Of a DNA stretch of 64,000 bases, positions 52,040 through 53,901 are shown one piece after another; the first letter of the stretch is position 1; the number at the start of each line of letters is the position of its first letter. The translations under genes were made by a program, and so were the position numbers. Source of the stretch: Roseivirga sp. BDSF3-8 (GTDB taxonomy: Bacteria; Bacteroidota; Bacteroidia; Cytophagales; Cyclobacteriaceae); NCBI RefSeq assembly GCF_041449215.1, contig NZ_JBGNFV010000001.1:4357001-4421000 (forward strand), in the 5' to 3' direction. Under the pieces are notes generated by a model. That model was not told the DNA's origin and did no database searches. It saw nothing but the letters and a program-made list of their open reading frames with translations.

Positions 52040-52222
52040 ATGTCTAAGAAAAAATTCAGCCTTGACACGCTAGAGATTAATAGTTTTGTGACTCTGGAAA
52101 CCAGAAAAAAGGTAGTAGGAGGAGGAGAAACCTGTGAGTGCTGTGAGCCCGCAGAGACCTATCCGGATCCTCGCTGCCCTGCTTCTATCACCACTGGCTG
52201 TGCTAACTACTGCGCGGTATAG
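52040..52222 (+). CDS. Pinensin-like RiPP (lanthipeptide-type) precursor peptide
   Basis: 60 residues. The leader MSKKKFSLDTLEINSFVTLE has the L-x-L-x-SFVT form seen in Bacteroidota class I lanthipeptide (pinensin-type) precursors, followed by VVGGG as a GG-type processing site. The core of about 31 residues is rich in Cys (six) and Thr/Ser: it starts ETCECCEPAETY and ends CANYCAV. Dehydration and Cys cyclisation would give lanthionine rings, though disulfides are also possible. No LanB/LanC-like cyclase, protease or ABC exporter gene is in the window. A strong terminator lies 35 bases downstream, so it is transcribed alone. Confidence 0.75.
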   Translation: MSKKKFSLDTLEINSFVTLETRKKVVGGGETCECCEPAETYPDPRCPASITTGCANYCAV

Positions 52223-52254
52223 ACTGATTGCTAATACTTTCAGTCAACGAACCG

Positions 52255-52290
52255 AAAGCCACCTGCTATTGAGCAGGTGGCTTTTATTTT
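52255..52290 (+). terminator. Terminator after RiPP precursor
   Basis: The stem GCCACCTGCT / AGCAGGTGGC, with AAA and TTTT flanks, is followed by TTTTATTTTATT. Confidence 0.9.
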
Positions 52291-52305
52291 ATTAATCGAA
52301 TTAAA

Positions 52306-52864
52306 ACCACCGTCTTAGACGGTGGTCATGTTTGAGGGCTATGCCAGTAGGGGTATATTGTGGAATGAGCAAGTATCGTAAGCTATCGCATAGCTTTTAC
52401 TATTGTGTCTATCATGTAGTATGGACCCCGAAGTACCGCCACCGTATACTTCGTGATATTGTTGCAGATACGTTGGAGAATAAGATAAAGACGATATGTG
52501 AATGGAAGGAGGTCAAGGTAGAAGAGTTGAACATTCAGCCAGATCACGTTCATTTGGTATGTAGTATACCTCCGAAACTTAGTGTATCAGACTTCATGGG
52601 TATTCTCAAGGGTAAGACAGCGATCATGATGTTTAAGAACTTCAAGAGTCTTCGCAGAAAACCCTATTGGGGCAATCATTTTTGGTCACGAGGCTATTTT
52701 GTAAGTACGGTAGGCATAGATGAAGAAAAGATAAAGCGGTATGTTAAGTATCAGGAGAAGGAAGATAAGAAAGAGGATGGGGATATAGATATCCCGCTAT
52801 TCGATAACTGACTATCCCCCTTTGGGGGTAATAACCATTGAAAACCCCCTCCTTTGGTGGGGGT
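52306..52864 (+). mobile_element. IS200/IS605-type insertion sequence
   Basis: Subterminal hairpins bracket a TnpA gene: left ACCACCGTC-TTA-GACGGTGGT at 52306-52326, right CCCCCTTTGGGGG at 52816-52828 and ACCCCCTCCTTTGGTGGGGGT at 52843-52863. Such elements lack terminal inverted repeats and are single-strand mobile. True ends are a few tens of bases outside the hairpins and cannot be set here. No tnpB gene is present. Confidence 0.82.
52365..52811 (+). CDS. tnpA: IS200-type transposase TnpA (HUH)
   Basis: 148 residues from ATG 52365. HUH motif in IQPDHVHLVCSIPP, with the family block SVSDFMGILKGKTA and NHFWSRGYFVSTVG. The catalytic tyrosine should be in the C-terminal helix (KIKRYVKYQ). Length is normal and no stop or frameshift is seen, so activity is possible. 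Confidence 0.93.
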   Translation: MSKYRKLSHSFYYCVYHVVWTPKYRHRILRDIVADTLENKIKTICEWKEVKVEELNIQPDHVHLVCSIPPKLSVSDFMGILKGKTAIMMFKNFKSLRRKPYWGNHFWSRGYFVSTVGIDEEKIKRYVKYQEKEDKKEDGDIDIPLFDN

Positions 52865-52930
52865 AATTTATTCTTGATTTAAGAGGGTGGATGTTCTAAT
52901 TTGATCAGAATTGAATTTTATCTACCCGCA

Positions 52931-53901
52931 ATGAAGCACCTACTACTTTTTATAGCTGTATTTATCGTTCTCGGAAGTGTCAGCTACGCACAACAGGCCG
53001 AAAAGCAGATGAAAAAGGAAACAGAGTATCTTCTGTATTTGCCAAAAGATAAGCCTGGATCTGATGGATACCCGCTAATGTTATTCTACACGGATCCGGA
53101 GAAAGAGGCACTGACGTACAAAAAGTCAAAGTAAATGGACCTCCCTCTTTTCTCGACGATACGACCTCATTTCCCTTTGTCGTTGTATCACCTCAGTGGC
53201 CTCCCGGTCAGTGGTGGAATACTCAAACGCTGCTTGATCTATTGGAAAAATAGAGGCAGAATTGCCGGTTGATAGACACCGGATATACCTGACGGGGTTA
53301 AGCATGGGGGGGCTATGGAACCTGGGCATTGCTAAAAGAGGCTCCGGATCGTTTTGCAGCTGCCGCCCCTGTATGTTCGGGTGGAGATGCCGAAGCAGCA
53401 TGCCGTTTTCAGGATGTACCTATTGGGTTTTTCACGGAGCAAAGGATGATGTGGGTACCTCCTGAAGAATCTCAAAAAATGGTGCATGCATTAGAAGAGC
53501 TGGGTGCAGAGGTGATGTTTACCTTGTACCCGGAGGCTAGTCATAACTCATGGACACTTACCTACAATAATCCTGAACTTTACACATGGCTATTATCTCA
53601 TTCCCTGACAAGAAAATAATCCGCCTAAGCGAAAGGAGTTGAAAAGAAGGGTGGGGGTATACACTGCTGATGAAGGGGAAGAACTGATAGTGGGAAGAGA
53701 AAAGGACAGCCTATATATTAGGTCTGGGACAGAAACTGGGGATACGAACTTGCAAGCAGGTCGCCGTCGGTTTACATTTTTTCCGGAAGAAGATCCCACG
53801 AATCCAAAAGAAAACTATACTTCAAAGAAGATGATAAAGGCGACGTGAACGGGCTTATTCTCGGACCTTGCGATGGCAAAGTATTTTGGAAAACTAAATA
53901 G
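52931..53901 (+). pseudogene. Decayed secreted esterase with C-terminal DUF3471-like domain
   Basis: Starts with a signal peptide (MKHLLLFIAVFIVLGS) and YLLYLPKDKPGSDGYPLML, then moves between frames. Joining frames restores a serine esterase of the dienelactone/PHB-depolymerase type: HGSGERG, RHRIYLTGLSMGG (nucleophile), WVFHGAKDDV and PEASHNSWT (His). A C-terminal region (LQAGRRRFTFFPEE and GDVNGLILG) looks like a DUF3471 domain. At least six single-base indels are needed: near 53086, 53249, 53310, 53425, 53455 and 53812. Each is a one-base change. The neighbouring genes are intact, so decay is likely. Confidence 0.8.

Follow-up and report, generated by a model that had tools for sequence, protein, structure and literature searches.

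The short gene at 52040-52222 in the window, the 64,000-nucleotide stretch of DNA analyzed here, is most likely one of about 165 class I lanthipeptide precursors that are dispersed over the genome, share a leader and are modified in trans by a single enzyme hub. This reading comes from sequence comparison and modeling. The distant enzyme set probably turns the family into ring-shaped secreted peptides. The gene and its downstream neighborhood have the following features.

52040..52222, + strand: precursor gene, 60 aa and stop codon (30.4 bits with the leave-one-out leader profile)
52040..52123, + strand: leader, 28 aa up to GG (FSLD...SFVT...VVGG), from the family leader alignment; C39 should cut after GG or GGG
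52124..52219, + strand: core, 32 aa with 6 Cys and 5 Ser/Thr; candidate rings from the spacing rule
52254..52285, + strand: intrinsic terminator hairpin, then T-rich sequence
52288..52872, + strand: IS200-like element (PF01797) with tnpA at 52368-52811; approximate limits from 24 aligned copies

The 60-aa product of the + strand, MSKKKFSLDTLEINSFVTLETRKKVVGGGETCECCEPAETYPDPRCPASITTGCANYCAV, has six Cys residues in its core. A sequence-only reading of the window had proposed a precursor with a Bacteroidota RiPP leader and a six-Cys core, and this ORF proved to be real. A leader profile that combined the 146 further leaders of the genome and left this one out gave it 30.4 bits, against a top score of 10.3 bits among 20,000 shuffled precursors. 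With the same profile, the runner-up among the 814 ORFs of the window reached 6.4 bits and the best score in 10 codon-shuffled windows was 9.5. Cys accounted for 6 of the 32 core residues, against 0.76% in the window ORFs of at least 250 aa. The terminator ascribed to the gene was also present, as a 12-bp hairpin starting 32 nt past the stop codon. No close paralogue of the core was found in the same genome (best other match E 0.25). With FSLD in this leader and LxLxxLxV in the family, the class I LanB-type leader motif (FxLD/LxLx) is present; the available part of PMC12710340 describes FxLD/LxLD as a recognition motif.

The search with a pinensin-leader model that the same reading had suggested gave a match of NF038180 to residues 4-18 (E 8e-4, 19.2 bits; 19.1 bits in the genome search), which is below the curated cut-off of 24 bits. 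A split LanB and a LanC were not located beside the gene, as the clustering of the pinensin family (NF038180) would have it. Because both the score and the clustering differed, the precursor was not filed as a pinensin.

The description of the gene as an orphan had to be given up. The leader was matched at no fewer than 150 places in its own genome, and about 165 ORFs with the leader MKKxKLxLxxLxVxSFVT...KGG were spread across the chromosome, together with a full enzyme hub; the sister precursors that the sequence-only reading proposed to look for were therefore found in large number. Searching the genome with NF038180 at E <= 10, with the best 150 of 219 candidates scored, gave 87 matches at E <= 0.001. 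At 72 of the 150 scored places the 24-bit level was reached alone, and at 9 more with the neighbors in frame. A second profile made from the genome's own leaders (best 150 of 222 candidates), combined with a scan of fetched stretches, added about 15 (the union was printed as 166 entries, two being one gene). At E <= 0.001, none of 14 control genomes matched NF038180, and 36 of 39 genomes, own included, were empty; at E <= 10, eight of the 14 controls gave matches, none above the cut-off.

The members of the family had a common build. The leader ended with GG in 126, AG in 17 and GA in 4 of the 150 scored frames (147 in all), and the core counts left out the three frames without a GG-like end. 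The median core length was 30 aa, and 139 of the 147 cores had at least two Cys residues. By BLAST, 99 of the 147 cores matched none of the others. Between direct neighbors on the same strand (35 pairs), leaders had a median identity of 0.52 and cores one of 0.34, and the leader was the more similar part in 32 of the pairs. On contig C1, the set of 150 occupied 92 places when grouped at 5 kb, with a single member at 60, and over all the two strands held 76 and 74 members. A terminator-like hairpin was present within 150 nt downstream of 81 of 142 precursors, compared with 0, 0 and 1 in three shuffles. The shared leader, the diverse cores and the precursors far outnumbering the enzymes (one PF04738 gene) correspond to a prochlorosin-like arrangement.

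No shared promoter was found upstream of the 142 precursors; TAnnTTTG occurred in 19 of them and in about 18 after shuffling, the 8 frames without a nearby ATG being left out of this count. The enriched upstream k-mers resembled the terminators of preceding genes and A/T-rich start-site sequence. Within about 1 kb of the precursors, no immunity or partner gene recurred apart from IS200 and a family that, judging from its motif, we take to be short-chain dehydrogenase-like. These two, found in 6 and 3 stretches respectively, were the only families among flanking ORFs of at least 60 aa that were present in three or more stretches.

The sequence-only reading had assumed that the precursor depends on machinery elsewhere and had proposed a search for split LanB, LanC and a C39 protease. 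All of these were found in one operon (C1:2590426-2601036), about 1.8 Mb from the precursor, which contains the one LanB gene that PF04738 matched in the genome. Its genes lie on one strand in the order C39-ABC exporter (736 aa, Peptidase_C39 and ABC), HlyD (462 aa, HlyD_3), LanB1 (1003 aa, Lant_dehydr_N), LanB2 (353 aa, Lant_dehydr_C) and LanC (672 aa, LANC_like). The claim that no enzyme or exporter lies in the window held for the families searched, LanB (PF04738), LanC (PF05147) and C39 (PF03412): none matched inside it, and all genome matches fell outside. LanB/LanC genes in the genome and leader homologues in relatives, on both of which that reading had made its case depend, were found. 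The hub and the large leader family support its view that the precursor is lanthipeptide-like and its leader of the pinensin type. The same hub genes recurred, whole or in part, around the LanB1 of other genomes. One precursor was located inside the hub itself, between LanB2 and LanC but oriented against them (C1:2598319-2598468, - strand), and 4 of the 150 scored places were within about 10 kb of the operon.

The catalytic motifs of the hub enzymes were conserved. Residues R784, R786, E823, R826 and H961 of NisB, which we take to be the elimination residues, aligned with identical residues in LanB2, within the stretches HIRLR, EVxRYGG and H..NNRL (whole-protein E 3e-4, the single stretches being weak). 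LanB1 had no match in an NCBIfam search. We also considered LanB2 as a thiopeptide pyridine synthase and rejected this, since the TbtD model gave 80 bits against a cut-off of 325 and since the second Arg of HIRLR, a stretch common to NisB and LanB2, is missing from TbtD. In the hub LanC, which is a separate protein, the motifs AWCHG and VCHG aligned with those of cyclases, and C287, C338 and H339 were invariant in 18 aligned LanCs. Thus, a LanC cyclase with zinc ligands and, in trans, a LanB dehydratase made up of LanB1 and LanB2 are both available to the precursor, and we infer that it belongs to class I. The nearest of the solved structures to the hub LanC was the LicM2 cyclase. This is in line with the pinensin-group LanCs, which the accessible text of PMC7268733 relates to class II cyclase domains.

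Based on these genes, the following route may be proposed. Two proteins would hold the leader (LxLxxLxVxSFVT; here FSLDTLEINSFVT): the split dehydratase LanB1, and LanC through a C-terminal RRE domain. LanB1 would glutamylate Ser/Thr residues of the core, and LanB2 would eliminate the glutamate. LanC would close thioether rings by joining Cys onto a dehydrated Ser/Thr, often 5-6 residues upstream. The C39-ABC exporter would then cut after GG, and the product would be exported with HlyD.

The leader might instead serve C39-ABC export alone, with disulfide-bonded cores and with LanB/LanC modifying few or none of the dispersed precursors. Such a role would agree with the Cys content of the cores (12.0%, against 0.1% in the leaders of 146 precursors), the even number of six Cys in the precursor studied here, the GG-like ends of 147 of the 150 leaders, and a second C39 domain, encoded by an open frame of 740 aa at C1:281234. 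However, odd Cys counts were common (65 of the 144 Cys-bearing cores; three more cores had no Cys). The leader also resembles the LxLxKx5L motif and GG of Bacteroidetes class I LanA, as far as the accessible text of PMC7268733 describes them, and it was present in all 44 LanB1 genomes searched. Ser/Thr residues were also enriched upstream of Cys, and not at +5/+6, in this genome and in others. Export of disulfide-bonded cores is therefore an unlikely explanation.

The spacing was examined by fixing the Cys residues and shuffling the other residues within each core 500 times. In the own genome, Ser/Thr occurred 282 times at -5/-6 of Cys against 185 expected, a number that no shuffle reached; with one core per family the counts were 218 and 142. 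The z values were 6.8 at -5, 5.4 at -6, 5.0 at +2 and -3.3 (depletion) at +4. The excess at +2 would be expected of consecutive rings. Four other sets yielded 103 leader matches, of which 99 ended GG-like and had a unique core, and Cys was present in 98 of these. The sets showed 57, 48, 51 and 84 occurrences at -5/-6 against 42.7, 27.8, 31.7 and 56.2 expected; these were reached by 7, 0, 0 and 0 of the 500 shuffles, the G342 set being the weakest (7). Four cores were in two sets (L180 comes from the genome of G342), so the test was repeated on the 94 distinct Cys cores, giving 230 against 150 expected, and on one core per family (77 cores), giving 184 against 118, with none of the 500 shuffles reaching either count. 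The z values for these other genomes were 8.5 at -5, 4.1 at -4 and 1.7 at -6, the excess at -6 being weak outside the own genome. No enrichment was seen at +5/+6 in the own genome or the other genomes. In thioether rings, Cys is commonly joined to a Ser/Thr that precedes it. The upstream-only excess thus fits lanthionine rings rather than disulfides, which predict no direction, and it weakens the case for disulfides, the alternative that the earlier reading had named. Of the sequence evidence, this indirect signature speaks most strongly for the dispersed cores as lanthionine substrates.

Applied to the core of the present precursor, the spacing rule gives T12-C18, S21-C26 and T24-C30 as candidate rings, and perhaps T3-C7. 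Two Cys residues near the N-terminus of the core would be left over and could be free or disulfide-linked. Because just one Ser/Thr precedes the first three Cys, at least one Cys has to go without a Ser/Thr partner. That Cys (6) outnumber Ser/Thr (5) in this core counts against lanthionine formation as the best explanation.

The hub LanC carries about 250 additional residues at its C-terminus, for which no Pfam family was found. An AF2 model of this extension had a pLDDT of 86.8 and a pTM of 0.82. Its structural matches included TglI (Z 12.7), NGO1945 (12.0), TbiB1 (8.8, covering 87 of 88 residues at 2.5 Å) and NisB (8.6), followed by lasso B1 (7.9), MccB (7.8), MibB (7.7), TbtB (7.5), TruD (7.4) and PqqD (6.8). 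Most of the top matches are, partly by our own assumption, RRE domains or RRE-holding proteins. Other proteins were also matched, namely the methyltransferase Rv2067c (Z 9.9), a Rickettsia PKMT (7.8), NO66 (6.9) and GdmN (6.6), and Foldseek alone was weak (best E 0.0021). The predicted model has the winged-helix PqqD-like fold of an RRE. The LanC C-terminus is therefore predicted to fold like the RRE domains of TglI, TbiB1, NisB, MccB and PqqD, but is fused here to a LanC cyclase, and it may bind the leader. A profile of the extension matched proteins in 63 of the 83 loci scanned, in hubs with the long and the short type of LanB1 alike, so the extension seems general to these hubs rather than a distinguishing mark of the expanded genomes. 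It had no match at the class V-like LanC locus L023. In the accessible text of PMC7470986 LanC is absent, and in that of PMC12710340 it appears once, as a label among Pfam identifiers.

A 703-aa LanC-like protein (C1:5547657-5549768) contained the same extension (E 2e-29), and its zinc-ligand motifs were apparently missing. No lanthipeptide gene was evident beside it. It is possibly a dead cyclase retained for leader binding.

The leader and the hub occurred together across genomes. Scanning named genomes with LanB1 gave 76 loci, and 44 genomes (own included) were searched for the leader, which was present at E <= 0.001 in every one. In the 25 genomes with the short, more distant type of LanB1 (Chitinophaga, Pedobacter and others), 23 had one leader, one had two and one had four. 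The 19 genomes with the long type, own included, had from 1 to 87 leaders, with 14 in F. marina, 22 in F. kasyanovii, 31 in F. imtechensis, 40 in a Cyclobacteriaceae MAG, 44 in an Acidobacteriota MAG (L176) and 87 in the own genome. Among the 39 relatives, own included, leaders were found in three, and the same three had a LanB1 of about 1000 aa; a fourth, in which the leader was absent, had its LanB match in another type of frame, of 742 aa. In a phylum sample of 296 genomes, scored on the best 26 or fewer leader and two or fewer LanB1 candidates per genome, three had leaders and two had LanB1, the overlap being the own genome alone. The genomes G318 and G069 had 4 and 1 leader matches without a LanB1 match, and perhaps other enzymes use the leader there; one genome had a weak LanB1 match without leader matches. 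The long-type LanB1 was also observed in MAG records labeled Acidobacteria/Acidobacteriota, Aminicenantes and Phycisphaerae (L176, L163, L172, L174, L183, L190).

The genome also holds a class V-like set at C1:4162723-4167069, which consists of an APH-type kinase, a HopA1 protein and a LanC. Its likely precursor is a 312-aa protein in which a repeat with Cys occurs four times almost unchanged. A different system such as this one might handle part of the leader family, and an NF038180-type precursor does lie about 3 kb away, at 4170095. However, the 312-aa candidate was not among the leader matches, and the leader tracks LanB1 in the relatives and in the LanB1-picked genomes, if not in the two phylum-sample genomes G318 and G069. 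It is very improbable that the class V-like enzymes take this part.

The surroundings of the precursor were examined next to those of its relatives. The IS200-like element is located just 3' of the terminator hairpin, as a neighbor outside the peptide system. The sequence-only reading had called it active-looking; 24 full copies were found in the genome, with a protein identity of 100% in 22 and 99% in 2, and one broken relative besides. A hairpin stood directly upstream of 10 of the 24 copies, which suggests that the element may insert at terminators and may not be what carries the gene. The same reading had noted a pseudogene; broken ORFs were indeed present at 52931-53619, which look like a decayed hydrolase gene, although the match to Peptidase_S9 (E 0.004) was weak and under the cut-off. 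As an explanation, the mobile accessory patch suggested there found no support. IS200 was present in 6 of 100 precursor stretches, few flanking families recurred, and no homologue of the tiny membrane protein was seen next to other precursors (best E 0.32).

The adjacent insertion sequence and the decayed gene might still suggest that this copy is a relic, once active, that has lost expression or processing. Some members of the family are visibly broken, those at 480320, 952199 and 5753907 having lost the GG and the first of them also having an in-frame TGA. By a simple rule, 136 of the 150 frames were intact, and 8 had no nearby ATG. In the precursor studied here, however, nothing is broken in the ORF, its ATG, the GG, the Cys-rich core or the terminator, and the insertion sequence lies 3' of the terminator, so that a relic seems quite improbable.

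Taken as a hub serving dispersed precursors, the system resembles the prochlorosins and SyncM of cyanobacteria, class II systems in which one enzyme set acts on many precursors that are alike in leader but varied in core (29 prochlorosin precursors and 79 for SyncM in the available parts of PMC12328550 and PMC9872173). It differs from them in having a split LanB and a LanC, in occurring outside cyanobacteria, in its roughly 165 precursor ORFs and in the RRE-like domain on LanC. With the pinensins (NF038180) it shares the leader type and the split LanB, according to the accessible text of PMC7268733, whereas here the precursors are dispersed and expanded many-fold, and the one studied scores under the NF038180 cut-off. 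The LxLxKx5L motif, the GG end, the C39 protease and the class II-like LanC of the Bacteroidetes class I LanA systems in the same text (Walker et al. 2020) are likewise similar. That text counts precursors per cluster, with 10 distinct ones in one class I cluster as a notable exception, and no mention of dispersed precursors was found in it. Our literature search found no paper describing such a system; Mohr 2015 (pinensins) and Caetano 2020 (Pedobacter lusitanus) could hold a precedent.

We consider it likely that some Bacteroidota, and perhaps some Acidobacteriota, use one split-LanB hub with an RRE-bearing cyclase to modify, in trans, over 150 precursors that are unlinked and diverge fast. 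The products may form a diversified secreted repertoire for antagonism or signaling. If so, it would exceed every such repertoire in the literature searched, doubling the largest one-enzyme lanthipeptide repertoire found there (79, class II) and moving it to LanB/LanC chemistry. It would represent a natural combinatorial peptide library missed by cluster-based mining: with so few of the scored places near the hub, tools that search only beside LanB/LanC would miss nearly all of the products of such a genome. The predicted RRE on LanC would give a concrete reason why the cyclase can serve unlinked substrates, and a class I system this tolerant of its substrates would be useful for peptide engineering.
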